From positions 1 through 25,511 of IMG/VR virus record IMGVR_UViG_3300032285_000996: a DNA stretch of 25,511 nucleotides; one strand, given 5' to 3'. This document shows positions 430-25,282 of this stretch, one piece after another; the stretch's first letter is position 1; each line of letters starts with the position of its first letter. The position numbers were made by a program, and so were the translations under genes. The notes below the pieces were generated by a model. That model searched no databases, was not told the origin of the DNA, and saw only the letters and a program-made list of their open reading frames with translations. The stretch is from a virus.

Positions 430-900
430 TTAATTAAATGTTTGAACGCCGAGGATTGAACTTAAATCAGCAGCCGATGTAGCATTTAATATCTTTGCAA
501 GTGCATCTTCGTCCACCCCTGGAGGTGTACCTGTTTGCATTACATTCTGGATTCTGCGCTGTGCATCGGATGCAGTTTCCTTAGCCTGAGTTTCCTCTGC
601 TGCTGGTTGCTGTACTCCGAACACATCGCCATACTCAGCAAGCCATGCGGACACGGCTTCTTCTGTAGTATCAATATCCTGTGGGATAAATGCTGCGACC
701 TTTGGGTTAATACCCTTTGCTGATAGAACATCCTTGACAGTACGCTGACGAGTCTGTGTCTTAAGTGTTGTCGCTTCTTGTTCAAGTTCTTTCAAACGCT
801 TTTCTAGCGTGCGATTTACCTTGCGTAGTTGCTTGACGACATCTTGTGGCTCATTGCCAAAGTCATCATCTTCGTCATCGTATTCGTAATTGGTAGCCAT
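430..900 (-). CDS. Capsid scaffolding protein
   Basis: This 156-residue protein is probably the internal scaffold that guides capsid assembly and then leaves the head. It has a very acidic N-terminus (YEYDDEDDDFGNEP), a charged predicted coiled coil at about residues 22-52 (QLRKVNRTLEKRLKELEQEA), a middle segment resembling other phage scaffolds (VKDVLSAKGINPKVAAFIP), and a low-complexity Ala/Glu/Gln tail. Its position immediately before the capsid gene supports the role. The start at 900 has GGGAG upstream at normal spacing. It could instead be a capsid-assembly protease cofactor, but no protease motif is visible. Confidence 0.78.
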   Translation of the reverse strand: MATNYEYDDEDDDFGNEPQDVVKQLRKVNRTLEKRLKELEQEATTLKTQTRQRTVKDVLSAKGINPKVAAFIPQDIDTTEEAVSAWLAEYGDVFGVQQPAAEETQAKETASDAQRRIQNVMQTGTPPGVDEDALAKILNATSAADLSSILGVQTFN

Positions 901-987
901 CTACCTATCTCCCTTTGTTAGTTGTATTCGCAATCCACAAACAAGGTTCGGGGAAACCAAGTTGGCTATTGCTCCTAGTCTTTTACG

Positions 988-1015
988 CCCCCCTGGGCTA
1001 GTCGGTCAGGGTGGG
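988..1015. other. Intercistronic hairpin between virion genes and the scaffold gene
   Basis: CCCTG at 991-995 pairs with CAGGG at 1007-1011, and after a one-base bulge CCC at 988-990 pairs with GGG at 1013-1015. The loop is 11 bases. It lies just after the stop codon of the upstream minus-strand gene and before scaffold and capsid. Read on the minus strand there is no U-run after the stem, so it may be an RNA processing or stability element. Read on the plus strand it is followed by ATTCTTTT and looks like a terminator, although no plus-strand gene runs into it. Confidence 0.5.
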
Positions 1016-1022
1016 GATTCTT

Positions 1023-2372
1023 TTATATTGAACTTTCTGTCTTAAGTGAACCAGCACTTAAACCAGATGAACCACCAAAGCGTGCTGCTTCACGGGCTGC
1101 ACGCTTCTGTGACTGCATAAGTTCTGCTTGGTCTTGTGCAAGAACTGCCTTAACTGCTGAGATGTCGTTGTAATTCTCGCCTTCAATCTGTGCGAGTTTT
1201 GACTGTGAGCCAGCAAGTTGATATGCCTTTTGGAAGTCTGTCTTAAGTGTTGTTAAATCTTCTTTGCCTGAGGCATTAACAAATGATTCAGCAACGCCTG
1301 CACCAAAGTTCTTGAAGCCTGCATTTTGTGCAGCAGCACCAATTTCAGCAGCACGAACTTCTTTGTTAATAAGGTCCATGCCAATCTTAGGGTCAAGTAA
1401 CCATGTGATTGCTGTAGGTGTTGAGATGTTGTAATAGTTTTGAAGTGCTGCAAGTACATCTGTATTCTTTGATACTCTGTCAGCAGCGATAGATACACGA
1501 TTCTCAAACTCAGCAGGTGATACTTCATTAGCAATCCACTGACCTTTGGCTTGAGTGGTTCCTAACACTTTGGCATCTAAACCGTAGGCACGCAATGTCT
1601 GGTCATACCCGCGTTCCATGTTAATGTAAGTTGATTCATTAACTGCCAAACCTTTTGCACGCAATGCATCCATACCAGGAAAACGGTCTTTGTATGCCTG
1701 TGTACCAATGAGGTTAATCTTAATCTGAGCAGCAGTTAAATCATCTTTAATGTAACCATCAATAGTATCTGCCAATGAATCAAGTCCAGCCATCTTAAGA
1801 CTTGCTTTGAAATCTTCTAGGGCTGTAGTTGTAGCACCTCGGGTTTGTGTCTTAAGTAAATCAGCGTTTGTCTTTGCTGTATTAAGACCTGATTGATATG
1901 TGGCATACGCCATTTGGTCAGTAAATTTTGTACCATCTGTGGCTGTATATGTTGTAACATTACCGCCACCTGCAGGAGGATTATCTCCATTTCCACCATT
2001 TGATGGAGGATTATTCCCATTGCTACTACTGACTGTGCCAAAATCTTTGTAAAGTTTCCACTCTCCAGCAATATAAGACCAGTGTGTTCCTGCTGGTGCT
2101 TCGTATGGAGGAGTAGTTCCGTTACCAGTTAAGCGTTCATTTTGAATACGAGCAAGGCGTTCTGCTGCTGTTTCTTTTGGTGCAGGTTCAGTAGGTGTGG
2201 TTTGTAAACCAGCATTTGCATACTCAAGATTAGATACTTGGTTAGTTACGCTTGAGCCAACATTGCCACCGTAGCCTATTTTTTGTGCATCAGCATCTGC
2301 TTTTTTAGCAGCAATCTTAAACTGCTCATCAACGGTTGTTTTTAAACTTGATTCGTAATCTGGGTCGCGCAT
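1023..2372 (-). CDS. Virion-associated protein of unknown function (449 aa)
   Basis: No enzyme motif is recognised. The N-terminal third is low complexity: a Lys/Ala/Asp helix, a Pro/Glu-rich linker, then an Asn/Gly/Pro-rich stretch around residues 112-137. The remaining two thirds are alpha-helical with the pattern AYKDRFPGMDALRAKGLAVN, a tyrosine-rich stretch (ERGYDQTLRAYGL), and VSPAEFENRVSIAADRV. I associate this pattern with structural or ejection proteins of uncultured tailed phages, from memory only. The start overlaps the stop of the preceding gene as TAATG, implying coupled translation. The placement between portal and scaffold is consistent with a protein packed in or near the head vertex. 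Three copies of CTTAAGAC fall in frame as Leu-Lys-Thr, including one at the C-terminus. Confidence 0.72.
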   Translation of the reverse strand: MRDPDYESSLKTTVDEQFKIAAKKADADAQKIGYGGNVGSSVTNQVSNLEYANAGLQTTPTEPAPKETAAERLARIQNERLTGNGTTPPYEAPAGTHWSYIAGEWKLYKDFGTVSSSNGNNPPSNGGNGDNPPAGGGNVTTYTATDGTKFTDQMAYATYQSGLNTAKTNADLLKTQTRGATTTALEDFKASLKMAGLDSLADTIDGYIKDDLTAAQIKINLIGTQAYKDRFPGMDALRAKGLAVNESTYINMERGYDQTLRAYGLDAKVLGTTQAKGQWIANEVSPAEFENRVSIAADRVSKNTDVLAALQNYYNISTPTAITWLLDPKIGMDLINKEVRAAEIGAAAQNAGFKNFGAGVAESFVNASGKEDLTTLKTDFQKAYQLAGSQSKLAQIEGENYNDISAVKAVLAQDQAELMQSQKRAAREAARFGGSSGLSAGSLKTESSI

Positions 2373-10683: not shown

Positions 10684-12501
10684 CTAAGCGGGTAAGCGTT
10701 TGATAAGAGATGCCTGTAAATTAGGCTCTCCCCGTTGGGTTAAACCTGCTAGTAGCGATTGAATATCAGGACGACCACCTGGTGATAGTTGTCCCGCTGC
10801 CACTCCTTGCATACGACCTGTAGGCGATAAGCCTGGAGGTAGTTGTTCTTGCCCCGCACCTGCTGGAACCGCACCTGGTTGCCCTTGTTCGGGACTTACT
10901 TCTGCAGGGGTAGCAGCAGGAGGGGGATTCTGAGGAGCCCACGCCTTTTGAATAGCAACTTCAATTGCTGTTCCCTTTTGGCGTTCGCTAATTACGGTAG
11001 AAAGTTTCATCAAAATGTCTGATGGGTCTTGACCTTGTGATGCAAGTGCTGGAATTGCTTGTGCATAAGAGGCAATTGCCTGCTTCATTGCATCGCGTAA
11101 TTCTTCTGTCTCAACTTTTTCTTCTTCTTGTGTTGCATTGAAGTTGAATGGCATCTGACGGCGTAGGAAATCGCGGGAAATCAACTTATCTCCGCGAGCC
11201 TGTAGACCAAATACCAACGCACGGTTGGGGTCAAGTCCTGCCATCAATCCATATTGCACATCAACTGTGTAATCGCCAGAAATATCTCGCGCTGGCTTGT
11301 ACTTAATGTTGTACGGCGTACCGTTAAAGATACCTTCTAGTGTCTTTTCTTGGTTGCCAAAAACTTTTTCATCTGTCTTAAGTGCTAAAGCCATCAACTC
11401 TGTAAATGCACGGGCAAACATTGAGTGTGCTGTCTTGATTTGTGTATCAAAACCACCCATAAGCGCCTGCACACCACGACCTGTGATGATAGAAGCATCT
11501 GAATTACCAGTGCGTGTCTCTGGATAGCGTGAACCTAAGCGTAGTTCGCTTTCAAGAACACCCTGCTGTTGGAAAGTATTTGCAGGTAGTTCAAGCGGGA
11601 CTCGGCGAATTTCGTTAGGCTTGCTGGAACGCATAATTGCATCTGGTCCAAGGGCTAACTCCTGTACATCCTGAGGCATTGCGATAGGTGCCTGTACTGA
11701 TTTGGTTGCTGCTTCCAAAGAAAGTAGCGCATAACGAGCCTTGGCAACCTGAATTGCTAGTACATCGTCAAACTGTCCTCGTGATTGGTCATCAATAGAT
11801 GGTCGGCGTACAACGCGAATCATACATTCGCCCATTGGATTAGCAGCGCGGTCAAGAACTAGGTTGCTACGCTGTGGCAAGAAGATAACATCTTGGTCTT
11901 TATCGTGGAAACGCACGACCTCAGACATTGTTGACTGTGTATTCTTGTCATAAATCAAATGTGCAATCTCTGGATATTGAGACATCAGTTCCTGAGTTGG
12001 CTTCATAATGCGTTGGAAGAACATAATGCAACGACCAAAGCGGTCAATTACAGGGTATGCACCCAATGAATCCATGAAACGGATGCGTGGCATCTGTGCA
12101 TCGTAATCAACTTCAACCTGTGCAGGTACAAATCCGTAGGTTACATAACGGTCTGCAGCATTAAACATCTGTGACTGTAAATCAGAGAAGTCAACAATGC
12201 CGTTAACAATTTCTTCACGCTTATCAGCCTTCTTACGAACTGTCTCAGACACCATAGATGTTGAGTTACAGTTAAACGCAGGCAGTGGTGCAATTGTTTC
12301 TGCAAGGTCACGGGCTGCAATATCTACCATATTCGCAACGATAGGATTCTCAAAAGGACCATCGGGGAATAAATCTGGGTAGACATCACGCATCTTGCCT
12401 TGACGAACCAAAAGAACTTGATTCATTCTCTGGTCACGGTCATCGTACATACGGCGATAACGGTCGTATGTATCTTTGATTTCGTCAATAGATAGCGCCA
12501 T
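10684..12501 (-). CDS. Portal protein
   Basis: This 605-residue protein should form the dodecameric ring at the head vertex through which DNA is packaged and ejected. The N-terminal helix set (IDEIKDTYDRYRRMYDDRDQ) leads to GPFENPIVANMVDIAARDLA and PLPAFNCNS, then the central wing region with RYVTYGFVPAQVEVDYD and FMDSLGAYPVIDRFGR, and a Pro/Gln/Gly-rich C-terminal tail. It is immediately downstream of the large terminase, the usual order. I place the start at ATG 12501 because AGGAGG sits at proper distance from it. The in-frame GTG at 12507 overlaps that ribosome site and is unlikely. Confidence 0.85.
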   Translation of the reverse strand: MALSIDEIKDTYDRYRRMYDDRDQRMNQVLLVRQGKMRDVYPDLFPDGPFENPIVANMVDIAARDLAETIAPLPAFNCNSTSMVSETVRKKADKREEIVNGIVDFSDLQSQMFNAADRYVTYGFVPAQVEVDYDAQMPRIRFMDSLGAYPVIDRFGRCIMFFQRIMKPTQELMSQYPEIAHLIYDKNTQSTMSEVVRFHDKDQDVIFLPQRSNLVLDRAANPMGECMIRVVRRPSIDDQSRGQFDDVLAIQVAKARYALLSLEAATKSVQAPIAMPQDVQELALGPDAIMRSSKPNEIRRVPLELPANTFQQQGVLESELRLGSRYPETRTGNSDASIITGRGVQALMGGFDTQIKTAHSMFARAFTELMALALKTDEKVFGNQEKTLEGIFNGTPYNIKYKPARDISGDYTVDVQYGLMAGLDPNRALVFGLQARGDKLISRDFLRRQMPFNFNATQEEEKVETEELRDAMKQAIASYAQAIPALASQGQDPSDILMKLSTVISERQKGTAIEVAIQKAWAPQNPPPAATPAEVSPEQGQPGAVPAGAGQEQLPPGLSPTGRMQGVAAGQLSPGGRPDIQSLLAGLTQRGEPNLQASLIKRLPA

Positions 12502-14506: not shown

Positions 14507-14515
14507 TGCTTAGCG

Positions 14516-14950: not shown

Positions 14951-15041
14951 CCCTCAAATGTTGAGAATGGCGAGGAATGAGAGTAGAAATCTCCTAGTGC
15001 TTAAGTCACAAGGATTTAAGCCGATGACAGGAGAACAAGAA

Positions 15042-15680
15042 ATGACAGCAACAACAGCACTTAAGACAGGAAAGACAAGCAAGGCGGAGGCACTCTCAAC
15101 AATTACAAAAGCCCTTGAACAGGCTCATGAAATCATCAAGGCAGAAACAGGAGCGCCCCGCGCAACTCTTCTTGTGACCCGCGACCTCAAGGGTCGTAAG
15201 GGACATTTCACACCTTTCACACCGTGGACAACAGGCGAGGAGTCTTTCTCAGAAATCGCGTTTAACCTTGAGCACTTCACAACACCAGAAGAACTATTGA
15301 GCACCTTGTTGCATGAGGTAGCGCACTCAATTAATCACATGAATGGAATCGAGGACTGCTCATCGAACCAATACCATAACGCCAAATTTAAGACACAAGC
15401 CGAGGCGTTAGGTCTTAAGACACTAGAAATCAAGGGCAAGGGACACGCTGCAACCGAACTCACCGAACTAGGCGCTAAGCGATGGAAGAAAGCCCTCACC
15501 ATCCTAAGCAACGCTTTCGACCTCACCGCACTAGGCGGAGAACAGGCGAAGAAGAAGGGGCGCAATACCAACCTAATCAAGGCAATGTGCGAATGTGAGA
15601 ATGTAATCCGCCTCTCTCGCGGTGTCCTTGAATCAGGCGTGACATGCAACCAATGTGAGGAAGTGTTCAAGGAGGCTTAA
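15042..15680 (+). CDS. SprT-like zinc metallopeptidase
   Basis: This 212-residue protein carries the zinc-protease motif HEVAH at residues 91-95, followed by a third-ligand-type segment NQYHNAKF (110-117), and a C-terminal zinc ribbon (CEC at 183-185 and CNQC at 202-205). This is the SprT/Spartan order: peptidase helix then zinc ribbon. Family members cleave proteins bound or crosslinked to DNA; a phage role could be clearing host DNA-bound proteins. I choose ATG 15042, preceded by ACAGGAG at eight bases, over an in-frame ATG at 14913 that has no ribosome site and would place the operator repeats in coding sequence. It is the first gene of the rightward cluster. Its TAA stop lies in a CTTAAGACAG motif. 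Confidence 0.8.
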   Translation: MTATTALKTGKTSKAEALSTITKALEQAHEIIKAETGAPRATLLVTRDLKGRKGHFTPFTPWTTGEESFSEIAFNLEHFTTPEELLSTLLHEVAHSINHMNGIEDCSSNQYHNAKFKTQAEALGLKTLEIKGKGHAATELTELGAKRWKKALTILSNAFDLTALGGEQAKKKGRNTNLIKAMCECENVIRLSRGVLESGVTCNQCEEVFKEA

Positions 15681-15785
15681 GACAGAAACAGCCCCCGCAC
15701 CTCAAGCGGGCGCAGGTTCAAGACCTAGCGGGGGCACTAGCAAGGCGAGAGAGTCTCACCTTGTGACTTAAGACAGGAGAAAGAA
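15676..15785 (+). promoter_or_regulatory. Compound intergenic element 1 (leader of the 102-aa gene)
   Basis: In order: CTTAAGACA containing the upstream stop; an outer inverted repeat GCCCCCGC (15691-15698) with GCGGGGGC (15728-15735) around a 29-base loop; GGGCACTAGCAAGGC; a hairpin of ten pairs with one mismatch, CAAGGCGAGA with TCTCACCTTG (15741-15763); then TTGTGAC joined to TTAAGACAGGAGAAA and the ATG. The second half closely matches element 2. It could be a terminator-plus-leader or a regulated RNA structure; there is no U-run after the GC-rich stem. Confidence 0.6.
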
Positions 15786-16094
15786 ATGAACGCAATCCGT
15801 AAGCAATGGAACGAGGCTCAAGAGGGAGGCTTTGGCACCCCTACAACATGGCGCATGAGTCAGCAGATACGGGCACAGAAAGACGAACATGAGTCATTTC
15901 ATGACTTAATGCAGATTATCCCCGCAGAATTAAGAAATGAAGTCATCGCCCTATGGGTCAGAGGAACTCAAGCCTCAGCAGATGAGGCGTATAACCGCCG
16001 ATTACTTAAGTCAGAACTCAGCGAATTAGATTTCAACGAGACTCAGAACATAGCGCACGAGGCTTGGAAGAAGTTGCTCAAGATTAGTGCTTAA
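15786..16094 (+). CDS. Unknown protein (102 aa)
   Basis: A charged, mainly helical protein, 102 residues, with no recognised motif. The N-terminal part is RKQWNEAQEGGFGTPTTWRM, and the C-terminal half is likely two helices (DEAYNRRLLKSELSELDFNE, then NIAHEAWKKLLKIS). The start has the conserved cluster leader TTAAGACAGGAGAAAGAA before ATG. The stop codon is the TAA of another CTTAAGACAT motif, and in-frame ACTTAAGTC near 16005 encodes Leu-Lys-Ser. It is probably an early accessory protein, judging only from the location among small genes. Confidence 0.7.
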   Translation: MNAIRKQWNEAQEGGFGTPTTWRMSQQIRAQKDEHESFHDLMQIIPAELRNEVIALWVRGTQASADEAYNRRLLKSELSELDFNETQNIAHEAWKKLLKISA

Positions 16095-16223
16095 GACATA
16101 AGCGCAAAAGTGTGACCAGTCACACAGCCCTAATCCCTTGACAGGAGGCGCGAGTTCATGACTCAATTAGGGCACAAGCAAGGCAGGAAATACTTGCCTT
16201 GTGTATTAAGACGGGAGAAACAA
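16090..16223 (+). promoter_or_regulatory. Compound intergenic element 2 (operator, TTGACA box, nested hairpins, leader)
   Basis: In order: CTTAAGACATA with the upstream stop; the palindrome GTGTGACCAGTCACAC (16110-16125); TTGACA at 16138-16143; a perfect outer inverted repeat GCCCTAAT (16127-16134) with ATTAGGGC (16166-16173) whose 31-base loop holds an AGGAGG (16143-16148 region) and an ATG at 16158; GGGCACAAGCAAGGC; hairpin CAAGGCA (16179-16185) with TGCCTTG (16195-16201); then TTGTGTA, TTAAGACGGGAGAAA and ATG 16224. No good -10 follows TTGACA at 17 bases. The architecture parallels element 1 in its second half and element 3 in its first half. Confidence 0.6.
16110..16125. promoter_or_regulatory. 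Perfect 16-base operator-like palindrome GTGTGACCAGTCACAC
   Basis: The half-sites GTGTGAC and GTCACAC are exact reverse complements with a CA centre. Related sites at 14903, 14933 and 17112 all precede plus-strand transcription units, and at 14933, 16110 and 17112 a TTGA(C/G)A box follows after 9-12 bases. Spacing between TGTGA and TCACA is four bases, not the six of CRP-family sites, so a different regulator is expected. Confidence 0.6.
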
Positions 16224-16427
16224 ATGCTTAAGTTTTATGTAGTAAAAGAGGACGGCACTCACGCCATTGTTAAGTTCGAAACTCTCAAGGAGTTTTGGAA
16301 GTACACCTCTAAGAATTACATTAAAGAGATTCAAACCCTAGACAATGACACCACTTATTCATTCGGAAGCCTAACTCAACCAACAGTGAGCGACCCTATC
16401 CGTTCATTACTTAAGACAGGAGAATAA
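16224..16427 (+). CDS. Unknown protein (67 aa; alternative 89-aa form)
   Basis: A 67-residue protein of mixed beta/alpha character (LKFYVVKEDGTHAIVKFETL, then KEFWKYTSKNYIKEI) with no recognised family. The ATG at 16224 has the cluster leader GGGAGAAACAA upstream and matches the other starts. An in-frame ATG at 16158 has a stronger AGGAGG at nine bases and would add 22 basic residues (GHKQGRKYLPCVLRREKQ). Both may be used, giving two forms, or the upstream one may be a regulatory leader. The C-terminus ends at LLKTGE within a CTTAAGACAGGAGAA motif that also supplies the ribosome site of the next gene. Confidence 0.65.
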   Translation: MLKFYVVKEDGTHAIVKFETLKEFWKYTSKNYIKEIQTLDNDTTYSFGSLTQPTVSDPIRSLLKTGE

Positions 16428-16430
16428 AAA

Positions 16431-16760
16431 ATGACTTACACCATAAAAGAAACCGACTACATTTTTGCCGTAGCCGATAACTTTGCCACCGATTACACGC
16501 TAGTAACCGACAACGATTCAGATTCTTACCACGAAATTATGGACATGGAAGAACTAAAAGCGGGCAACATGAGCGGACTCAGTGACCGACTTAAGACAGA
16601 GTTTGAAACCTACATTAGCGAGGTAGTAGAGCGCGAACGCGAGAACGGACACGAGGCGGGCGCTTTGCTTATCTCTCAGTTACTTATCGGCATGGGTTCA
16701 ACCACTTTCGACATGATTGCCCGCCATTACTTAGCACTTAAGACAGAAAGCGAGGCTTAA
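16431..16760 (+). CDS. Unknown acidic protein (109 aa)
   Basis: A 109-residue acidic protein, Asp/Glu-rich, with probable helices in the C-terminal half (SDRLKTEFETYISEVVERER, then ALLISQLLIGMGSTTFDMIA). No catalytic motif is seen. The acidity and size recall small phage inhibitors of DNA-binding host proteins, but nothing specific supports that. The start follows ACAGGAGAATAAAAA three bases after the preceding stop. The gene contains two in-frame CTTAAGACA copies (RLKTEF, ALKTES), and its stop TAA lies in a third, CTTAAGACATG, which contains the start of the next gene. Confidence 0.68.
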   Translation: MTYTIKETDYIFAVADNFATDYTLVTDNDSDSYHEIMDMEELKAGNMSGLSDRLKTEFETYISEVVERERENGHEAGALLISQLLIGMGSTTFDMIARHYLALKTESEA

Positions 16761-16763
16761 GAC

Positions 16764-16874
16764 ATGAGCACCGATACATTATTTGGAATCGCTATTAGCA
16801 CCGCTGTAATCGTATGCCTTGCGGTTGCTTTCTCGCCAGAGTTCACCAACTGGCTCATAAGTTTGGGGTTTTAA
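16764..16874 (+). CDS. Small single-pass membrane protein (36 aa)
   Basis: A 36-residue protein with one hydrophobic segment covering roughly residues 5-23 (TLFGIAISTAVIVCLAVAF) and a short C-terminal amphipathic tail. The ATG begins three bases after the upstream stop, inside the motif CTTAAGACATG, so initiation is probably by coupling. It lacks its own Shine-Dalgarno. It is too small for a typical holin, though size does not exclude membrane-lesion, superinfection or antiholin roles. The next two genes overlap or abut it, and one also encodes a membrane protein. Confidence 0.55.
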   Translation: MSTDTLFGIAISTAVIVCLAVAFSPEFTNWLISLGF

Positions 16875-16875
16875 A

Positions 16876-16947
16876 ATGGAAACTATCTGCGGAGACTGCC
16901 TTATCCCACTCAACCAATGCCAACATGCGAAGGAGTACAAGCGATGA
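16876..16947 (+). CDS. Tiny zinc-knuckle-like peptide (23 aa)
   Basis: The 23-residue product has CGDC at positions 5-8 and CQH at 15-17, a CxxC...CxH arrangement able to bind one zinc. The ATG starts one base after the preceding stop, and the stop overlaps the next start as ATGA, the coupling pattern used elsewhere in this cluster. There is no clear Shine-Dalgarno. The cysteine spacing and exact junctions favour a real gene, but its shortness leaves doubt. Confidence 0.45.
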   Translation: METICGDCLIPLNQCQHAKEYKR

Positions 16948-17105
16948 AACTAACAAGACGAGGCAAGATAGTCAGAGCAATCTTTATTTATGTCTTAATA
17001 CTGACAGCAATTATCGGAGTATCAAACGCACTAGGTGTGTGGGATGTATCCGAGTCATGTCTAGTAGAGCAAGTCGGATGTCCCGCTGGATACCCTCTGC
17101 CTTAA
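16944..17105 (+). CDS. Small membrane-anchored protein (53 aa)
   Basis: A basic N-terminus (MKLTRRGKIVR) precedes a hydrophobic segment at about residues 12-30 (AIFIYVLILTAIIGVSNAL), then a short outside domain with two cysteines (SCLVEQVGC) that could form a disulfide. This is a signal-anchor topology with the C-terminus outside. ATG 16944 overlaps the tiny upstream gene as ATGA; an in-frame upstream start at 16917 lacks support. The stop TAA lies in CTTAAGACATA. With the 36-residue protein it forms a small membrane pair of unknown role. Confidence 0.6.
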   Translation: MKLTRRGKIVRAIFIYVLILTAIIGVSNALGVWDVSESCLVEQVGCPAGYPLP

Positions 17106-17198
17106 GACATAGTGTGACCAACGCCACACACAAAATGCTTGACACGCTATGCCACCAAGTGGCAGAGTAATAACTACCAACAACGACAGGAGAAACAA
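17101..17198 (+). promoter_or_regulatory. Compound intergenic element 3 (operator-like site, TTGACA box, hairpin, leader)
   Basis: CTTAAGACATA with the upstream stop is followed by GTGTGACCA and CACAC (17112-17129), TTGACA at 17139-17144, the hairpin GCCAC-CAA-GTGGC at 17151-17163, and the leader GACAGGAGAAACAA before ATG 17199. The order matches element 2, including the distance of about ten bases from palindrome to TTGACA. The best -10 candidate (CAGAGT, spacer 18) is poor, so if this is a promoter it may need the phage sigma factor or an activator. Confidence 0.55.
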
Positions 17199-17345
17199 AT
17201 GCAAAGACTAACAGCAAAGCAAGCGACCATAACAGTCACAATTAAATTGGGCAACGACATAGAGAGTTTCTTTTTCTATGACTCAGCCTCATACGCACAG
17301 ATTATTAACGCTATCAACAACGCACAACGACAGGAGGGAAACTAA
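17199..17345 (+). CDS. Unknown small protein (48 aa)
   Basis: A 48-residue protein with likely beta strands at the N-terminus (KQATITVTIKLGNDIESFFF) and one helix (ASYAQIINAINNAQRQ). No family is recognised. ATG 17199 is chosen because GACAGGAGAAACAA precedes it exactly as at other starts in this cluster; the frame is open further upstream without a ribosome site. The end of the gene overlaps the ribosome site of the next gene (GACAGGAGGG). Confidence 0.6.
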   Translation: MQRLTAKQATITVTIKLGNDIESFFFYDSASYAQIINAINNAQRQEGN

Positions 17346-17346
17346 C

Positions 17347-17640
17347 ATGGCACTACCAGAGCAAACACTTGAAGCATTAACCAACGGACACAACCACATG
17401 GAGTTCAACGAGGACGGACACATGACCAGTGCCAGCGGGTCAGGCGTGGACTTATACATTCTTGTCTCACTTGTATCTTGGATTAAGTTAGAACTTAAGA
17501 CAGGAATGAAGATGACTAGCAAAGGTAGCACGCTTAAGAAGGCTAACGAAATGCTGGGCACAAACTATCGCCGTAAGGAACAGGCGTTAGCCCACCTTGA
17601 GGGACTGCTATCAGTACTTAAGACAGAGGAGGAGAACTAA
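17347..17640 (+). CDS. Unknown protein (97 aa)
   Basis: A 97-residue protein with a His/Asn-rich N-terminal region (NGHNHMEFNEDGHM), a helix (LYILVSLVSWIKLELKTG) and a Lys-rich C-terminal half (STLKKANEMLGTNYRRKEQA) that could bind nucleic acid. No motif assigns a function. The start has ACAGGAGGGAAACTAAC upstream. Two CTTAAG copies fall in frame as Leu-Lys. The final LKTEEEN is encoded over CTTAAGACAGAGGAGGAG, which doubles as the ribosome site of the next gene, whose ATG overlaps the stop as TAATG. Confidence 0.65.
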   Translation: MALPEQTLEALTNGHNHMEFNEDGHMTSASGSGVDLYILVSLVSWIKLELKTGMKMTSKGSTLKKANEMLGTNYRRKEQALAHLEGLLSVLKTEEEN

Positions 17641-17774
17641 TGGCTACTGTATGGAAGTCATCAGTCACAACCAACATGACCAAGCACCTCACCCAACAAG
17701 AATTGTCAGACCTCGTGGCTAAGTTAGATGATGTAGTCATGATGGTGTGCGAGTCGTATGAGATTGGGGCTTAA
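17640..17774 (+). CDS. Unknown small protein (44 aa)
   Basis: A 44-residue product with one probable helix (TQQELSDLVAKLDDVVMMV) and a single Cys. It is identified by the strong GGAGGAG before the TAATG-coupled start and by ending exactly on the TAA of a CTTAAGACATG junction motif, like several neighbours. A small helical phage protein of this size often works by binding a larger partner; nothing here identifies one. Confidence 0.55.
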   Translation: MATVWKSSVTTNMTKHLTQQELSDLVAKLDDVVMMVCESYEIGA

Positions 17775-17777
17775 GAC

Positions 17778-17924
17778 ATGAAAGATAAATGGCTTATCAC
17801 ATTAGAGATTGAAACTTATGACGGCGACCCTAAAGGTTGGGACTGGAATTACATTTTTACAGGCGAGGACGAAGCAAGAGTAATCACCTCAGAGTTTAAG
17901 GGACGAGTACTCACAGATGAATGA
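17778..17924 (+). CDS. Unknown small acidic protein (48 aa)
   Basis: A 48-residue product with the beta-rich sequence KWLITLEIETYDGDPKGWDW and an acidic second half (FTGEDEARVITSEF). The ATG lies in CTTAAGACATG three bases after the previous stop and has no separate Shine-Dalgarno. The pattern of strand, turn and helix could form a small compact fold. It overlaps the next gene by eight bases in another frame. Confidence 0.55.
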   Translation: MKDKWLITLEIETYDGDPKGWDWNYIFTGEDEARVITSEFKGRVLTDE

Positions 17925-18066
17925 GACGGAACTTAAGCAGACATACAGCGCAATAAAGAGAGCAAGGTCACAGCGAAATAACACCACAAATAACGAGGAC
18001 TTTGACTACTGGCAAGGCATACTAGAGCAGTACCAAAACAAACTACAGACAGGAGAAAACAAATGA
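17917..18066 (+). CDS. Unknown small basic protein (49 aa)
   Basis: A 49-residue charged helical protein (TELKQTYSAIKRARSQRNNT, then DFDYWQGILEQYQNKLQ). The start lies within the end of the previous gene; the stop overlaps the next start as ATGA, and its last codons (TGENK) encode the leader ACAGGAGAAAACAA of that gene. An in-frame CTTAAG near the start encodes Leu-Lys. The precise overlaps support it although its ribosome site is weak. Confidence 0.5.
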   Translation: MNETELKQTYSAIKRARSQRNNTTNNEDFDYWQGILEQYQNKLQTGENK

Positions 18067-18308
18067 CACACACAATTATGGCTGGGGCTATGAGCAAGGC
18101 AACCACAGCATACGACAAGGACTTTGACCTCACCATTGACGGCGAAGAAGTAAGAGTTATCCTGCACTGGGATGACCTTGACGGATACGAACTGACATGG
18201 CTGGACAAGGAAGGCAGATTCATTACATCACCTGATTGGCTTGATGAAGTAAATGATTTCTGTCTTAAGTTAGATAACACCGAGCCACATAGCAAGGTGT
18301 TGTTATGA
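18063..18308 (+). CDS. Unknown acidic protein (81 aa)
   Basis: An 81-residue acidic protein with alternating hydrophobic and acidic residues (DFDLTIDGEEVRVILHWDDL, then YELTWLDKEGRF), consistent with a small beta sheet, and a C-terminal helix (PDWLDEVNDFCLKLD). The ribosome site ACAGGAGAAAACAA is perfect for this cluster. It ends with an ATGA overlap with the next gene. DNA-mimic or inhibitor function would fit the charge but is speculation. Confidence 0.68.
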   Translation: MTHTIMAGAMSKATTAYDKDFDLTIDGEEVRVILHWDDLDGYELTWLDKEGRFITSPDWLDEVNDFCLKLDNTEPHSKVLL

Positions 18309-18499
18309 TTCTTATGGAGTGCAGAAGTTGCGGTGTCATGGTGCAGAACCCAAAGACATTGAACTACATGGCGGAAAGATGCACGCCATGCGAGATGAAG
18401 TTCAGAGAACTGGCGAACCGCGCCATTGACACCTACCTAGATGAGAAGGCAGAGGCAGAACGCGATGCTCAACTTAAAACTGATTCACCCGCACGCTAG
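18305..18499 (+). CDS. Small zinc-finger protein (64 aa)
   Basis: Residues 6-9 are CRSC and residues 26-29 are CTPC, a two-knuckle CxxC...CxxC zinc site of the treble-clef or zinc-ribbon kind, followed by a long charged helix (KFRELANRAIDTYLDEKAEA). Zinc-finger proteins of this size in phages usually bind nucleic acid or a host protein. It is joined to the upstream gene by ATGA, and its last 35 bases overlap the start of the transglycosylase gene. Confidence 0.68.
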   Translation: MILMECRSCGVMVQNPKTLNYMAERCTPCEMKFRELANRAIDTYLDEKAEAERDAQLKTDSPAR

Positions 18500-18908
18500 A
18501 TTATGGATTGTTACAGTACTTATTTTGGGATTTATTTTTGTACTTAAGACACCAGCAAGGCAGTATGTATTGCCCGAACATGGCAGACTTATCGCCTACT
18601 ATCAGAACGATTACCAACGCTACGCGATTGACAAGTTGATACAGCAAGACAACCTTGAACAGTATCCATGTCTCTATGAATTGTGGACTAAGGAATCTAA
18701 CTGGCGACCAAAGGCTATGAATAAACATGGCGGTGCTATGGGTATTGCACAACTGAAACCCTCAACATGGCGTGTGCTTAAGTTGAAGCCCACGACCAAC
18801 GGCTACCGACAGGTAGATGCTGGACTCAAGTACATTGACAGACACTATGGTGAAACAGGTGGAGTGTGCAGAGCGTACGCCCATTGGTTAGCGGAAGGTT
18901 GGTATTAA
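18465..18908 (+). CDS. Membrane-anchored lytic transglycosylase (SLT-like)
   Basis: The 147-residue protein has an N-terminal hydrophobic segment at residues 13-27 (LWIVTVLILGFIFVL) and then an SLT domain: catalytic Glu77 in WTKESNW, followed by KHGGAMGIAQLKPSTW and AGLKYIDRHYG, the conserved lysozyme-like goose/SLT order. It cleaves the glycan strands of peptidoglycan. The anchor suggests export with the catalytic domain outside the membrane, as in phage SAR or anchored lysins, or a role in cell-wall penetration. ATG 18465 is preferred over 18441 because AGAGG lies upstream at suitable spacing. The stop TAA falls in ATTAAGACATG, which starts the next gene. Location in the small-gene cluster, away from virion genes, favours lysis or wall remodelling over a tail role. 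Confidence 0.78.
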   Translation: MLNLKLIHPHARLWIVTVLILGFIFVLKTPARQYVLPEHGRLIAYYQNDYQRYAIDKLIQQDNLEQYPCLYELWTKESNWRPKAMNKHGGAMGIAQLKPSTWRVLKLKPTTNGYRQVDAGLKYIDRHYGETGGVCRAYAHWLAEGWY

Positions 18909-18911
18909 GAC

Positions 18912-19160
18912 ATGACACACGAAGAACTATTGGCAAAGGTAAATCAAGGAATAGAATCTTCTAATTATTCTAACTCTCTTGGTGAGTGGCACGCAGATAG
19001 TTTTCTTTCTGCCCTGCGTGCAGTAGTGGAATTGCATAAGCCAAAGAACTACATCATTAAAGGGTTTGAAGTTACAGAGTCTTGGTGTACTGCTGACTCT
19101 GAATCACTAACTCCATACCCCTGCTCAACTATTCAGGCTATTGAGAAGGAGTTAGAGTGA
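18912..19160 (+). CDS. Unknown protein (82 aa)
   Basis: An 82-residue protein starting THEELLAKVNQGIE, with SALRAVVELHKP in the middle and a C-terminal segment containing two Cys. The N-terminal pattern (EELL followed by LRAVVELH) is one I associate with small actinophage proteins of unknown function. The ATG lies three bases after the previous stop in a TTAAGACATG junction. The stop overlaps the WhiB start as ATGA, so the two are probably co-translated. Confidence 0.68.
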   Translation: MTHEELLAKVNQGIESSNYSNSLGEWHADSFLSALRAVVELHKPKNYIIKGFEVTESWCTADSESLTPYPCSTIQAIEKELE

Positions 19161-19498
19161 AGCCACAGTTCCACAGAGTAATCAGCGTTACTCATAGCAA
19201 GAACAGATACAACAAGGGCTTGATTGGTTATGTCTTAAGATACAACCAACGGCTATGGGACAAGGCAGTTTGCAGGGGTATAGACACAGAGATTTTCTAC
19301 CCAGCACAGGAGTTGTTCACTCGTGACGAGGAGCGCATGTTTGAGAAGATGTGTGTTGAGTGCCCCGTTATGATGGCTTGCCTTGAGTGGGGCTTAGCCC
19401 ATGAAAGGTACGGAGTATGGGGCGGGACGACACCACCCATGCGACACAAGATTAGAGCAAGGATTGGTTGGGCTTTGACAGAACCAAAACTTGGGTGA
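19157..19498 (+). CDS. whiB: WhiB-family iron-sulfur transcription regulator
   Basis: The 113-residue protein has the four cluster-binding cysteines at 39, 66, 69 and 75 (C...CVEC.....C) and the family signature GVWGG at 86-90, followed by a basic tail (RHKIRARIG). WhiB proteins bind a 4Fe-4S cluster and contact region 4 of the primary sigma factor to alter transcription; phage versions such as the one in mycobacteriophage TM4 can block host WhiB function. The N-terminal 35 residues are basic and longer than in minimal WhiB proteins. It is the last gene of the rightward cluster, ATGA-coupled to its neighbour and followed by a terminator. It is the main evidence that the host is an actinobacterium. 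Confidence 0.93.
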   Translation: MKPQFHRVISVTHSKNRYNKGLIGYVLRYNQRLWDKAVCRGIDTEIFYPAQELFTRDEERMFEKMCVECPVMMACLEWGLAHERYGVWGGTTPPMRHKIRARIGWALTEPKLG

Positions 19499-20258: not shown

Positions 20259-20908
20259 TCTTCACTCCTATCTGGTCGGCGGTATCTACGGTTGTTCCAT
20301 TGTGGTTGCTCACCACCGAGTCGCTCTTGTAACTTGGTAAGTGCACGAGACACACGCTTGCGTACAGCCTCGTCACTAATCGAATACTCAACAGCAAGGG
20401 CATCTATGTCTGTGCCTCCCTCTGCGAACCTGCGTTGCAACAGCAACTGGTCTTGTTCATTTAGTTTCTTAAGACCGAAAGACACATCACTTAACATAGC
20501 CTCACGATTCATTCCCTCGTTGGGCTTGCTTGAGGTAGAGATGAACTCATCCTTAGGCGAGGAAGATACTGTCCACTGTTCATAGTTCCATACATCTTTC
20601 AGCAACTCTTGCAAGATGTCATGCGTGTAATAGAAAGCATCCGATGGTGTTGACTTAGTTTTATAGGCACGCTCTTTGGCGGCAAACTTCTGTGACTCGT
20701 TGTTAAATGTACGCTTGAGTTTAAATACCAATGAGTCTTGGTTATGCCACTCCTCAATCTTGTGCCAATGTTCTAGTGCCCAAAGGTTAAGGTGTTGGTA
20801 GACATCATCAGCCGTGACTAAGTGCCTATGAATACGGGTACATCTAGCAGCAGATAAGCGTGCTACTTTATAGACCTGTTCCCATAGTAAATCTTTCTCG
20901 TCACTCAT
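20255..20908 (-). CDS. Phage RNA polymerase sigma factor (sigma-70 family, ECF-like)
   Basis: The 217-residue protein has an N-terminal region 2-like segment (TADDVYQHLNLWALEHW at 32-48), a variable middle, and a C-terminal region 4 helix-turn-helix at about 150-196 (LNEQDQLLLQRRFAEGG, then ALAVEYSISDEAVRKRVSRA). It should direct host RNA polymerase to phage promoters. The Ser/Lys linker at 113-133 is unusual. It overlaps the upstream gene by eight bases and the downstream small gene as ATGA. Because WhiB proteins act on sigma region 4, this gene and whiB may form one control circuit. A HTH regulator without polymerase contact is the alternative. Confidence 0.78.
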   Translation of the reverse strand: MSDEKDLLWEQVYKVARLSAARCTRIHRHLVTADDVYQHLNLWALEHWHKIEEWHNQDSLVFKLKRTFNNESQKFAAKERAYKTKSTPSDAFYYTHDILQELLKDVWNYEQWTVSSSPKDEFISTSSKPNEGMNREAMLSDVSFGLKKLNEQDQLLLQRRFAEGGTDIDALAVEYSISDEAVRKRVSRALTKLQERLGGEQPQWNNRRYRRPDRSEE

Positions 20909-21287
20909 TCTTTAATTGCCTCATTGCCTCTAGTAAGTTATCAACTGTGATGAGATACCCCTTGCTTTTATTCGGGGGAATCTCGCAGGTAATCTCTCTA
21001 CCAAAGTTCTTTATTGCGTAGTGTACATGGTCAGTAGGTACCATCAGCACACCCTTCTCAAGTACGAACGCCCAGTAAGCAGCCTCAGTCACCATCAAAC
21101 CTGATGCTTCCCATGATTGTGTCTTAAGAAACCAACACTCAACTTCTATGTAGAGGTTACCTGTCTTGTTCCATTTTCTGTCACGCTTTACTTCTATTGT
21201 CTTGCCTTCGGTAAGTAGTTCTTCAACTAACTTCTCACCTTTACGCCCGTATCCAAAGTCTAAATCAAAGGATGAATTTTTAGCCAT
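20901..21287 (-). CDS. Putative PD-(D/E)XK nuclease-like protein (128 aa)
   Basis: The N-terminal half reads FGYGRKGEKLVEELL followed by TIEVKRDRKWNKTGNLYIE. A helix with an acidic residue, then a strand with E-V-K (Glu32, Lys34), is the minimal active-site pattern of the PD-(D/E)XK fold. The rest (SWEASGLMVTEAAYWAFVLE) resembles small phage nuclease-like proteins. It is wedged between primase and sigma genes with short overlaps on both sides. It may act in recombination or DNA processing; catalytic competence is not certain. Confidence 0.6.
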   Translation of the reverse strand: MAKNSSFDLDFGYGRKGEKLVEELLTEGKTIEVKRDRKWNKTGNLYIEVECWFLKTQSWEASGLMVTEAAYWAFVLEKGVLMVPTDHVHYAIKNFGREITCEIPPNKSKGYLITVDNLLEAMRQLKNE

Positions 21288-22807: not shown

Positions 22808-23525
22808 TGTTGTTCTCCTGATTCGCTGCTGCTTGTGCTGCTTGCCAGTACAGTGCATAGTAATTCTCATCGTAGGCAAAGCGCTTCATGTGCTTTGCGA
22901 TAGCACCAGTGTGTGCATGTACAGGTACACCTGCTGCTTTAAGTTTACGGAAGAACACAATGTCCTCACCCACAAACTTCTCACCAACATTCTCAATCTC
23001 TGCAAACATAGACTGACCTGGAAACTTCTGTCTTAAGGCAGGAACCACTGACTTATGCATGAGCGTAAGCCCAAGCCCTGCATTATCTACCTTGATAACT
23101 TGGTCCTTAGGTAGCGGGTGCTTGTACTTAATCTCATACTCATTGTCAGTCTCATCAAACAAGGCAGGCATAGGTTGCATGAGTGATGACTCCATCTGCT
23201 TAGAGATAAAGTAAACACCCGATACAACTGGGCGTGCAATCTTGTCTGCTGTATTCCACAACAGTTCAAGGATGTCAAGGGTTAACACGATGTCAGAGTC
23301 AACCCATAGCAACCAGTCTGTCTTAATACTGTCAGCCCACATGTCGAACAAGGCTTGGCGTTGGCGACCAATCTGATTACCTTGCACACGCACAGCATTG
23401 TGAATACCAATGTTGCGTGTTGGTGCAGTAATCGTGGTGTACATCAGACCTTCGGTGAACTTACCGTCAGTCAAACCATTGTCACACCAACCAATAGATA
23501 ATGTTTCTTTACTACTGTGTGCCAT
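22791..23525 (-). CDS. GT-A glycosyltransferase (244 aa)
   Basis: The protein has the GT-A nucleotide-sugar motif DSD at residues 76-78 in DWLLWVDSDIVLTLD, a conserved helix (NQIGRQRQALFDMW), an acceptor-side motif GEDIVFFRKLKAAG (186-199) and a histidine-rich end (VHAHTGAIAKHMK). This resembles family 2-like phage glycosyltransferases that modify DNA, proteins or cell-surface sugars. The target is unknown; lying among DNA-metabolism genes, DNA or a host surface component are both possible. ATG 23525 is preferred, with CGAGG upstream; 23543 is an alternative. It overlaps both neighbours. Confidence 0.78.
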   Translation of the reverse strand: MAHSSKETLSIGWCDNGLTDGKFTEGLMYTTITAPTRNIGIHNAVRVQGNQIGRQRQALFDMWADSIKTDWLLWVDSDIVLTLDILELLWNTADKIARPVVSGVYFISKQMESSLMQPMPALFDETDNEYEIKYKHPLPKDQVIKVDNAGLGLTLMHKSVVPALRQKFPGQSMFAEIENVGEKFVGEDIVFFRKLKAAGVPVHAHTGAIAKHMKRFAYDENYYALYWQAAQAAANQENNNGPQG

Positions 23526-23826: not shown

Positions 23827-24085
23827 CCTTTGCGGTGAAAGTAACAGTTCTTCCGTCAATGTAAGATTCGAACTGTTCTTCCGTGAGGTCCATGAACTCA
23901 CCAGTCTTTTTATTTTTCCAAACAAGTGCCCTCCAACCAGCGGTGTATGTAAGTACACGGGGTGTAAATTTAATTTGTGTTTCAATGTCAGTCTTAAAAC
24001 GCTCTGTCTTAATAACGAACTCGTCTCCGACTTCGCTGGCTGGTACCTCGCCACCATTTTCTATTACTGATAAATCCCAATCCAT
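23783..24085 (-). CDS. Unknown protein (100 aa)
   Basis: A 100-residue mixed beta protein: GDEFVIKTERFKTDIETQIK, TYTAGWRALVWKNKKTGEFM and GRTVTFTAKDGSSTKQ. No motif points to a function. The start at 24085 has AAGGAG at good spacing. Together with the following helical gene it lies between helicase and glycosyltransferase, so a replication accessory role is a guess. Confidence 0.65.
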   Translation of the reverse strand: MDWDLSVIENGGEVPASEVGDEFVIKTERFKTDIETQIKFTPRVLTYTAGWRALVWKNKKTGEFMDLTEEQFESYIDGRTVTFTAKDGSSTKQVEGTSGS

Positions 24086-24094
24086 TTGTATCTC

Positions 24095-24874
24095 CTAAGG
24101 TTGTCCAACATCTAGTACCTGCATACTTGCAGGGTCATACGAAAGCCACACTGGTGTGCTTCCGTTAGCATCGGCGGGTCCGTAACGATTCTTAACAGCA
24201 CACACACCCATCGTAGAGATTTGGTTAATGACTGTAAGTATCAGACTCGGAGTCTGAGCGACCTTGCCATGTAGTGCTTTTTGTGGTGGGCAAGGGTTAC
24301 CAGGTACCCCCTCAGAGGTGTGGTGACAAACCACAACCGCAGCACCAGTCTCCCGTGCCCACCACTTAAGTTCCTTCATCAGTGTACGCAAACCACCCCA
24401 CTCATCTTGCGAATCCATGGTTACATCCACTGCATTGTCAAGCACAATCAAACGAACATCCTCACCAAGTCGTTCACGAGTAGCAAGTACTGCATCCTCA
24501 ATGTCCTTAAGTGTTGGTGATGAATCAAACTCCCAATAAATGTGGTCAGCAGGCTTGAGCATTTGCGCTGCCCAGTCTCTGTCCATTTCCATTAGAGGTT
24601 CTACTTCTGCTTGTTGCTTTCCCGTCAGCAGTGCAAGCAAACGAAGGCTCATCGTATGTGAGTGTGTATCTGCAGAGATGTAAAGAGTTGGAACTTTTGC
24701 ACGGACTGCCAAGGACAAAGCAAGCGTTGACTTGCCTGCCCCTGGCGGTCCAGCAATCATGCTCACCTCGCCGTAACGGATTGCTATTTGTTGAGCAGCG
24801 AAGGAGTGCCAGACCACAGGAAGGGTTGCACCCCCTCGTGATTCTGTCTTAATAGCACGGCTGAGTAAGCGCAT
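24095..24874 (-). CDS. RecA/DnaB-like ATPase (probable replicative helicase)
   Basis: A 259-residue RecA-fold ATPase with Walker A GPPGAGKST at 42-50, a conserved LYISADTHSH motif, Walker B LIVLDN at 142-147, and sensor-like VVVCHHTSEG at 180-189. A single RecA domain without the DnaB N-terminal domain is common for phage helicases and for Sak4-type recombinases; the ISAD and CHHT motifs fit DnaB/KaiC-like better than Sak4 as I read it. It probably works with the split primase downstream. The C-terminal part contains NRYGPADANGS, a likely DNA-contact loop. Confidence 0.75.
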   Translation of the reverse strand: MRLLSRAIKTESRGGATLPVVWHSFAAQQIAIRYGEVSMIAGPPGAGKSTLALSLAVRAKVPTLYISADTHSHTMSLRLLALLTGKQQAEVEPLMEMDRDWAAQMLKPADHIYWEFDSSPTLKDIEDAVLATRERLGEDVRLIVLDNAVDVTMDSQDEWGGLRTLMKELKWWARETGAAVVVCHHTSEGVPGNPCPPQKALHGKVAQTPSLILTVINQISTMGVCAVKNRYGPADANGSTPVWLSYDPASMQVLDVGQP

Positions 24875-24877
24875 TTT

Positions 24878-25282
24878 TTATGCAGGTACCTTGTTCTGGC
24901 AAGCCTGTCCCTGTGGCTTTGGGCACGCATAAAATGCTTTGTACGGACGACCCGTTGACTTAGCAATACCTGCTGGTACATGGCGCATTGGTCCACCACC
25001 GCAAGTACAATCAGGTACCTGACCTGCTGGCTTGTAACCTGCTGGTGCTGGGTATGAAGGTGCAACTGCAGCCACTGGTGTGTGACCTACAACTTCTGGC
25101 TTAAGACCAGCATTGCTTACTGCACAGATAGCATCAATGCTTGACTCAAGGTCAGCGATTGCTGCGATGCGAAGTGTCAAACCATCTAGCGCTGCATCTA
25201 GTTCAGCATCAGAGGTTGCACGGATGTTAAGTAAAGTACCCTTAGGTGTCTTTACATTTACTTGGTATAGCGCTTCATTCAT
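24878..25282 (-). CDS. Zinc-ribbon protein of the replication module (134 aa)
   Basis: The N-terminal half is beta-rich then helical (YQVNVKTPKGTLLNIRATSD, DAALDGLTLRIAAIADLE). A Pro/Ala linker follows, then a zinc ribbon starting CTCGGGPMRH and ending YACPKPQGQACQN. This C-terminal ribbon resembles those of small single-stranded DNA-binding or nuclease-associated phage proteins. AGGAGAACCAA precedes ATG 25282. It overlaps the nuclease gene by eight bases and is followed three bases later by the ATPase gene, consistent with a joint recombination or replication unit. Confidence 0.65.
   Translation of the reverse strand: MNEALYQVNVKTPKGTLLNIRATSDAELDAALDGLTLRIAAIADLESSIDAICAVSNAGLKPEVVGHTPVAAVAPSYPAPAGYKPAGQVPDCTCGGGPMRHVPAGIAKSTGRPYKAFYACPKPQGQACQNKVPA

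Follow-up and report, generated by a model that had tools for sequence, protein, structure and literature searches.

The window analysed here is the whole 25511-bp stretch (G+C 45%) of the IMG/VR virus record IMGVR_UViG_3300032285_000996, and our subject is a short DNA word, CTTAAGAC, that recurs along it and is densest in a gene module beside the terminase gene. Recognised genes of this phage encode terminase, portal, primase, DnaB-like helicase, a sigma-like protein, WhiB, transglycosylase and dNMP kinase. The sigma homologue is common (29-30%) to the window phage and to E7 and F5, cultured 'Ca. Planktophila' phages (PMC10202952), and F5 has the terminase, portal, primase, helicase and other families of the window's group; a terminase profile run against genome_contigs found no relative. 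On these homologies we take the phage to be an actinophage of the wider E7/F5 kind. The features that bear on the word are:

14389..19498, plus strand: module between terminase and WhiB, running in the opposite direction to terminase; peak word density (17 CTTAAGAC and 19 TTAAGACA vs. 0.2-0.3 expected)
15042..15680, plus strand: SprT-like protein with HEVAH and zinc ribbon KGRNTNLIKAMC, candidate reader of the word; PF10263 match via the longer frame 14913-15680
19157..19498, plus strand: WhiB gene at the distal end of the module, rival candidate reader
15000..15008, plus strand: CTTAAGTCA, an imperfect word ~42 bp 5' of the SprT start
758..765, minus strand: CTTAAGAC
1039..1046, minus strand: CTTAAGAC
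1240..1247, minus strand: CTTAAGAC
1794..1801, plus strand: CTTAAGAC
1849..1856, minus strand: CTTAAGAC
11375..11382, minus strand: CTTAAGAC
12739..12746, plus strand: CTTAAGAC
15060..15067, plus strand: CTTAAGAC
15412..15419, minus strand: CTTAAGAC
15414..15421, plus strand: CTTAAGAC
15676..15683, plus strand: CTTAAGAC, at the SprT stop codon
15767..15774, plus strand: CTTAAGAC, continuing into the next gene's ribosome-binding site
16090..16097, plus strand: CTTAAGAC
16410..16417, plus strand: CTTAAGAC, continuing into a ribosome-binding site
16590..16597, plus strand: CTTAAGAC
16737..16744, plus strand: CTTAAGAC
16756..16763, plus strand: CTTAAGAC
17101..17108, plus strand: CTTAAGAC
17494..17501, plus strand: CTTAAGAC
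17617..17624, plus strand: CTTAAGAC, continuing into a ribosome-binding site
17770..17777, plus strand: CTTAAGAC
18262..18269, minus strand: CTTAAGAC
18543..18550, plus strand: CTTAAGAC
19232..19239, minus strand: CTTAAGAC
20468..20475, plus strand: CTTAAGAC
21121..21128, minus strand: CTTAAGAC
23030..23037, minus strand: CTTAAGAC
25100..25107, plus strand: CTTAAGAC

The first-pass annotation had counted by eye about 45 copies of the core CTTAAG, and had expected about seven; computed, there are 45 vs. a shuffled mean of 7.59 (maximum 16 in 100 shuffles), and 22 of them start between 15000 and 19234, in the plus-strand cluster that it had singled out. The extended form of the core is [CA]TTAAGACA. 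Among all 8-mers of the window CTTAAGAC ranks first under an order-1 model (28 copies vs. 0.8 expected) and second under an order-2 model (28 vs. 1.64), behind the overlapping TTAAGACA (30 vs. 1.82); it occurs 18 times on the plus strand and 10 times on the minus strand, the same pattern read backwards once and not at all. The orientation with transcription that had been proposed is also real, 26 of the 30 copies of TTAAGACA lying along the gene and three opposite to it.

Relatives were collected by terminase (the best 80 of 389 matches in viral_contigs, with loci added by two further scans). The window and 23 relatives were used as 24 whole contigs (G011 without 452 bases), and 64 other loci that extend 1.8 kb or more upstream of the terminase gene TerL brought the set to 88; shorter stretches, records already among the 24 contigs and L154, which is like L153, were left out, and some of the 88 are near-identical. 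Each of the 24 contigs has a single dominant 8-mer, either CTTAAGAC (or the overlapping TTAAGACA), GTTTAAAC or GTCTAAAC, and all 88 loci could be assigned accordingly to class A (CTTAAGAC, 30 loci), class B (GTTTAAAC, 54) or class C (GTCTAAAC, four); the 24 contigs comprise 10 of class A, 13 of class B and one of class C. Seven of 40 sequences were without any of the three words, and all seven had <1.3 kb upstream of TerL. The class B word is a perfect palindrome and is sharply defined, 154-fold enriched with all of its one-mismatch neighbours at most 3.5-fold, near background, while one-mismatch counts in the class A upstream stretches give a degenerate word, [CA]TTAA[GT][ATC]C[AC]. G+C upstream of TerL is higher in class C loci (0.53-0.55).

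The word-bearing module, ~5.5 kb long and adjoining terminase in the related phages, holds its own class's word and hardly any other: in the 10 class A contigs TTAAGACA occurs there 200 times (2.6 expected) and GTTTAAAC not at all, and in the 13 class B contigs GTTTAAAC occurs 258 times (1.5 expected) and TTAAGACA once. Likewise CTTAAGAC is ~98-fold enriched in the class A module and absent (1.8 expected) from the same module of the class B contigs. Word density is lower in the early genes, where the split persists (TTAAGACA 49 vs. 2.3 expected with two GTTTAAAC in class A; GTTTAAAC 151 vs. 1.8 with two TTAAGACA in class B), and beyond the module and early genes class B contigs still carry 154 GTTTAAAC vs. 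9.9 expected. Words are spaced upstream of TerL at a mean of 265 bp in class A, 281 bp in class B and 334 bp in class C, more regularly than at random (coefficient of variation 0.66-0.75 vs. 0.90-0.94), with helical phasing weak at best (resultant 0.09 in classes A and B; 0.28 in class C, from 37 gaps).

Some further words were seen in the group. Three class B loci (L182, L189 and L194) have more TGTTTAAA than GTTTAAAC (25/19, 30/20 and 26/17), perhaps a relaxed or asymmetric variant; the class A contigs G007, G008 and G009 hold five, six and 10 copies of GTTTAAAC over the whole contig, perhaps left over from an earlier class B module; and structural genes of class C type (L061 14786-17294, L069 4785-7293 and L116) carry five to six copies of GTATAAAC, a fourth form of GTNTAAAC. 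L069 itself is without the three words, with GTATAAAC five times vs. 0.14 expected, and because their positions match those in the class C phage L061 we regard it as a class C relative without the module.

Sites are kept between relatives of the same class but not across classes. In ten contig pairs, with identity to the eighth power as the expectation (in brackets), the partner of the same class had an intact site at 38 of 43 positions (13) for G010/G012 at 86.5% identity, 17 of 22 (6) for G000/G001 at 84.5%, 11 of 14 (6) for G018/G023, 11 of 24 (4) for G007/G009 and 35 of 35 (22) for G004/G006. The corresponding figures for pairs of different class were two of 18 (4) for G022/G023 at 83.1% identity, none of 10 (2) for G022/G018, one of 15 (2) for G006/G001 at 79.4%, none of 11 (1) for G004/G000 and three of 14 (2) for G013/G007. 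Classes are intermixed in the trees of TerL, portal, sigma, primase and DnaB, with G018 and G023 (class A) standing next to G022 (class B) in those of TerL, portal and sigma. The TerL tree of 88 rows needs nine word changes (minimum two; lowest of 50 shuffles, 24), which indicates that the module is often exchanged, while within the module the WhiB tree (53 rows) needs the minimum of two class changes and the transglycosylase tree (55 rows) four. This agreement of module genes with class is partly built in, because class was called from word counts that the module dominates; the informative observation is that early genes outside the module bear the word of the resident class and hardly the other. 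Word class goes with this frequently exchanged module and does not follow terminase, portal, sigma or helicase.

The first-pass annotation had held that no shared codon pair could account for the repeats and that selection acts on the DNA word itself. The second claim is supported by the class structure, the copies between genes and the conservation; the first stands for the excess (copies in gaps, the ~98-fold enrichment in one module and its absence from the class B counterpart) and fails for frame and direction, since 17 of the 28 in-gene copies of the window fall in a Leu/Ile-Lys-Thr frame and codon usage by itself favours the sense direction (below). We give almost no probability to the explanation that the word is background, from a recurrent Leu-Lys-Thr tripeptide or a biased codon pair: that frame speaks for it, as does the modest surplus of CTTAAGAC in E7 and F5, most of it in genes, but copies are also found in gaps, over stop codons and ahead of starts, sister phages of the group use a different word in different frames, and sites are maintained against drift. 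Such background may explain part of the class A copies in structural genes.

The SprT-like gene of the module separates class A from classes B and C throughout. A SprT-like protein that we call SprT_A is encoded at 30/30 CTTAAGAC loci and 0/58 others, and a second type, SprT_B, at 58/58 GTTTAAAC or GTCTAAAC loci and 0/30 CTTAAGAC loci. The window protein matches PF10263 (27.9 bits, curated cut-off 25.6) and resembles the SprT-like/Spartan metalloproteases in that match, in its HEVAH motif, which is present in SprT_A of all 10 class A contigs, and in its C-terminal zinc ribbon. The ribbon is common to SprT_A and SprT_B (hhalign probability 77, E 2e-5), while HEXXH is lost from SprT_B of classes B and C (retained in 0/14); 20 further rows, preselected by that motif, are left out of these HEXXH counts. 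Unlike those proteases, the phage proteins are here proposed to be sequence-specific regulators. The class B module also has a conserved trio (e.g. G010 10434-12867) of degenerate SprT, Amidoligase_2 and a class II glutamine amidotransferase, the last name being our own from sequence and database matches; it was found in all 13 class B contigs and in G017.

Outside the group, SprT_B has relatives (E 1e-3) in 82 phage records, of which 65 belong to Arthrobacter and 15 to Microbacterium phages. We took 11 cultured phages from these two hosts (4A, Powerpuff and Emotion whole, eight as stretches holding SprT), and in all 11 the top 8-mer was a sister word, GTGTAAAC (observed/expected: Percival 9/0.02, Yang 11/0.04, GardenState 9/0.01, 4A 13/0.20, Powerpuff 27/0.12, Emotion 17/0.14, Maureen 5/0.06, Zeta1847 16/0.06, Caron 12/0.01, Soondubu 12/0.14 and DrManhattan 14/0.07). 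Of 29 gene families of the group, searched for in 16 outside phages, only SprT_B is present in every one of the 11, and the word-less Salgado, WRightOn, FlowerPower and F5 gave no match to it. The terminase-related Streptomyces phages WRightOn, FlowerPower and JXY1 showed no word excess, nor did Dulem virus 37.

Comparison of Henoccus with Dismas drew attention to a motif just before the zinc ribbon, Q.TR..K, which was then tested on newly added phages. Henoccus has it as KKQGTRMLK with the word at 23/0.03, Stuff has it with the word at 21/0.04, Alexa has it with CGTTTAAACG at 8/0.10, and in 4A it reads KPQGTR; in all, 15/15 examined phages with a motif-bearing SprT have a GTNTAAAC word (ep3 weakly). 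No enrichment was seen in the five with a motif-less SprT or SprT remnant (Dismas with no words, MW2 and Epa5 with one stray GTNTAAAC word each, Lynlen and phiAsp2). The SprT of the Actinoplanes phage phiAsp2 (L219) is of the A type, and its word is another one, TGAAGTGTCA (14 vs. 0.01). Across phage families the SprT-like gene is the one that best tracks the word, and its ribbon motif tracks the word's sequence. As separate observations, the phiAsp2 copies lie mostly within TTGACTGTGAAGTGTCA, next to promoter-like hexamers as read by eye, and gene 49 of the Microbacterium phage Lynlen (L232) encodes a 52-aa protein similar to the SprT of Dismas, a relative, in the zinc ribbon only.

These phages also bear on who reads the word. 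That a host protein does so, the phages being host-adapted, has little probability in our view. The higher G+C of class C suggests that hosts may differ between classes, and early modules could be host-specific, but Percival (isolated on Microbacterium foliorum NRRL B-24224 SEA) and Dismas (on NRRL B-24224) share a host species and strain number, one with nine words and the other with none, which speaks against a host reader, and cultured phages with GTNTAAAC words come from Arthrobacter, Microbacterium, Streptomyces and Acinetobacter, so that the words occur in phages of both Actinobacteria and Acinetobacter. Another module protein, either WhiB or a small unrecognised one, might instead read the same array, with SprT merely linked and regulated; we regard this as doubtful, though a serious alternative. 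WhiB lies in the module, its tree tracks the word at the minimum of changes, it is the sole recognised transcription factor there and it is also present in Henoccus and Stuff. Against it, WhiB was not found in the 11 sister-word phages (three whole genomes and eight stretches), occurs in the word-less Salgado, FlowerPower and F5, and, SprT_B and the dNMP kinase with its limits (below) apart, no tested family runs with GTNTAAAC.

The first-pass annotation had named WhiB, sigma and winged-helix proteins as binders to try. None of the three is supported: WhiB, linked though it is to the word, was not found in the sister-word phages just described; the winged-helix protein is clear in only two of the 24 contigs (plus one weak stretch, E 0.23); and the sigma tree mixes classes and does not track the word, one column of 248 separating A from B, and sigma too was not found among the 11 sister-word phages. 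The amidoligase, present at 58/58 class B/C loci and 0/30 class A loci, and the glutamine amidotransferase were dropped because both occur in the Salgado stretch, which has no word. A 65-aa zinc finger and the families cl47 and cl48 were dropped because they were not detected in every class A locus whose upstream stretch is long (L016 and L177 without the zinc finger, L177 without cl47).

By our own gene calls, 272 of 327 class A words and 468 of 563 class B words lie in genes. By the same calls class A copies in the 10 contigs run sense:antisense at 204:68 in genes and 40:6 in gaps (244:74 in total), while orientation in class C is weak or absent (20:11 in genes, 2:2 in gaps, 22:13 in total); in Powerpuff, 20 of the 27 words share one orientation (20:7) and 13 lie between genes, in gaps that make up 8.2% of the genome. 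A codon-usage model built from class B contigs, which are unselected for the class A word, predicts 3.8:1 sense:antisense for that word in genes, so the in-gene bias needs no further cause, and since gap copies often run into the ribosome-binding site (TTAAGACAGGAGA) orientation is also fixed there.

An RNA signal, i.e. a translation or mRNA-stability element read in the sense direction, had been among the candidates first put forward. The mostly sense copies of class A, often abutting a ribosome-binding site, favour it, and the Start Associated Sequences (SAS) of Cluster K phages, as far as the available passages of PMC3203893 describe them, are comparable. We nevertheless find it very unlikely: in-gene orientation equals the codon-usage prediction and so gives no evidence for such a signal, class C has little or no orientation, class B is palindromic, the preferred place ahead of a start codon is not the same (−26 to −17 in A, −8 in B), and antisense copies of the class A word number 74 vs. 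~9 expected.

Among phages with GTNTAAAC words, a copy falls in the 300 bp before the SprT gene in 13/14 cultured phages (1.8 expected; 4A left out) and in 13/13 class B and 1/1 class C contigs, class B words being dense there anyway. For Percival we took a downstream start, in line with the alignment to relatives, the annotated one placing the word 10 bp inside the gene; Zeta1847, with its annotated start, is the miss, and a word at L225:11422-11429 stands just before the downstream ATG by our count. By eye, words overlap promoter-like elements in GardenState (TTGCGC-GTGTAAAC-TATACA) and G022 (TTGACA-GTTTAAAC-TACATT), and TATAAT is followed by two words in G021 and by one in ep3. Such words, next to −10 or −35-like hexamers in front of SprT and of some early genes, fit a transcription regulator and count against a DNA-modification, packaging or replication site with no bearing on transcription, to which we would assign only a slight probability. 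The words are indeed short, the class B word is palindromic, sharp and enzyme-site-like, and density peaks in one region, but restriction would select against sites, and nothing points to a modification site.

The reading that we prefer, as the first-pass annotation had suggested in likening the words to stoperators, is that they are operator or stoperator-like sites of a regulator encoded in the module, most likely the SprT-like protein, and we give this an even chance. A phage-encoded, sequence-specific DNA-binding regulator would bind the word at sites spread across the module (~1 per 270 bp) and the early genes, more thinly elsewhere, serving as operators and stoperators; bound copies would close promoters and stop RNA polymerase within genes. 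The regulator's gene would lie inside the module adjoining terminase and would most likely be that of the SprT-like zinc protein at the module's opening. That a protein binds the word and that binding represses we infer from sequence patterns, and class A CTTAAGAC would work with SprT_A likewise, on grounds of linkage and homology. An operator array read by a module protein accounts for the classes, for how well the sites are conserved and how evenly they are spaced, for the palindromes and for the promoter sites.

Several results weigh against this reading. The exact word stands upstream of SprT in only one of 10 class A contigs, and the degenerate word within 100 bp upstream in seven of 10 vs. 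4.1 expected. A scan of the group for promoter hexamers found no word excess at them (A 6 vs. 10.8, B 21 vs. 24.5, C 2 vs. 0.7). Beyond module and early genes, contigs of class A have a modest excess of their own word (TTAAGACA 73 vs. 12.7, CTTAAGAC 59 vs. 8.2) and hold 27 GTTTAAAC vs. 6.5, mainly in G007-G009, so that exclusiveness of the words is limited to module and early genes. The word-less E7 and F5 have 11 and nine CTTAAGAC vs. ~1.5, an excess similar in size to that in class A structural genes, with CTTAAG near background (16-17 vs. ~13.5); the modest excess in the window's structural genes may thus be background. AlphaFold models of SprT_B and SprT_A gave no significant match in the PDB, the SprT_A list being headed, below significance, by the SPRTN-related 6mdw (E 0.17) and 6mdx (E 0.35). 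The cultured phages are partly close kin and their counts non-independent, and ep3 has the ribbon motif with a weak word (GTTTAAAC 4/0.90). The dNMP kinase is a near-equal companion of the sister word, in 7/11 word phages (the four without it being known from stretches that start further to the right) and 0/4 word-less ones; class A, which has another word, carries it as well (9/10), and the Henoccus, Stuff and ep3 stretches gave no match to it. Lastly, none of 16 contigs of the window's group matched PF00589, PF00239 or PF13614, which makes an immunity role there doubtful; the array may, as a conjecture, switch off early genes in late infection or keep out related phages that superinfect.

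Stoperators are best compared with those of Cluster A mycobacteriophages (L5 repressor type), which, in the available parts of PMC6550527 and PMC9283540, have 20 to 30 repressor sites genome-wide, some of them at promoters (the repressor's region among these) and most elsewhere, with a motif that varies between relatives. As there, one word lies far above chance in many genome-wide copies and differs between relatives. Unlike the 13-bp asymmetric Cluster A site, the present words are 8 bp and palindromic (class B) or nearly so, most copies are in genes and not in short gaps, no L5-type repressor was recognised among the scanned proteins, and, against the integrase or parABS of such temperate phages, none of the 16 contigs matched PF00589, PF00239 or PF13614. 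Should SprT be the regulator, words near its promoter would correspond in 13/14 cultured phages and 14/14 class B/C contigs, with class A at 1/10 for the exact word and 7/10 for the degenerate one (4.1 expected). As to the predominance of one orientation relative to transcription at Cluster A sites, the counts here are 244:74 in class A, which codon usage explains within genes, 22:13 in class C and 20:7 in Powerpuff. Cluster K phages, according to the same passages of PMC3203893, have a repeated word at gene starts in their non-structural half, together with WhiB- and SprT-related genes, as here; SAS are 13-bp, non-palindromic and tied to start codons, unlike our mostly intragenic copies and palindromic class B word. 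The stoperators of Rhodococcus Cluster CA and Streptomyces R4-type phages are short repeated sites bound by an immunity repressor and described as intergenic in the portions available of PMC5721134 and PMC10276819, and their words differ from those here. Among the literature matches listed there was no SprT-like repressor and no account of the words, from searches not aimed at CTTAAG and covering few subscription journals or preprints.

Other repeats were noted in passing. An inverted repeat, GGTGTCCAGAGGACAC..GGACA, lies at 14554-14582 of the window, in the non-coding leader that separates terminase from module, with a similar stretch in nine leaders of classes A, B and C, and TGGGTC is also in excess across the window (21 vs. 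4.7). Emotion (an Arthrobacter phage, L223), which has no integrase named in its gene table, carries TCACGTGAAA/CACGTGAAAC 14 times vs. 0.01-0.03 expected, a repeat that we take to resemble the chromosomal parS core. Repeated 12-mers occur in L217 (AGAAGGTTGCCC, seven copies), L216 (AGGAGTGCGCCT, seven) and L218 (AGAAGACCGCCT, six).

Several cultured GTGTAAAC phages have a serine integrase in their gene tables, and Powerpuff forms homoimmune lysogens with no known repressor in the part of PMC8758107 available; homoimmunity without a recognised repressor leaves that post open. SprT-like proteins with the ribbon motif (Q.TR for GTNTAAAC, KGRNTN for CTTAAGAC) might be a new repressor class, some of them dead proteases, coating early genes with dozens of 8-bp operators, serving Arthrobacter and Microbacterium phages as their missing immunity repressors and switching immunity type by module swap, a proposal that we rate as possible though somewhat short of an even chance. 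If true, a protein that the annotations of many phages call a protease or 'transcription elongation protein' would be a sequence-specific regulator with a readable code from ribbon to word, and operators could be predicted simply from genome sequence. It would put a name to the repressor that PMC8758107 describes as unidentified in Cluster AZ/EH phages, and would extend stoperator-like control of early genes to phages without recognised integrases, in which the regulator changes by module swap and the sites in other early genes come to match.

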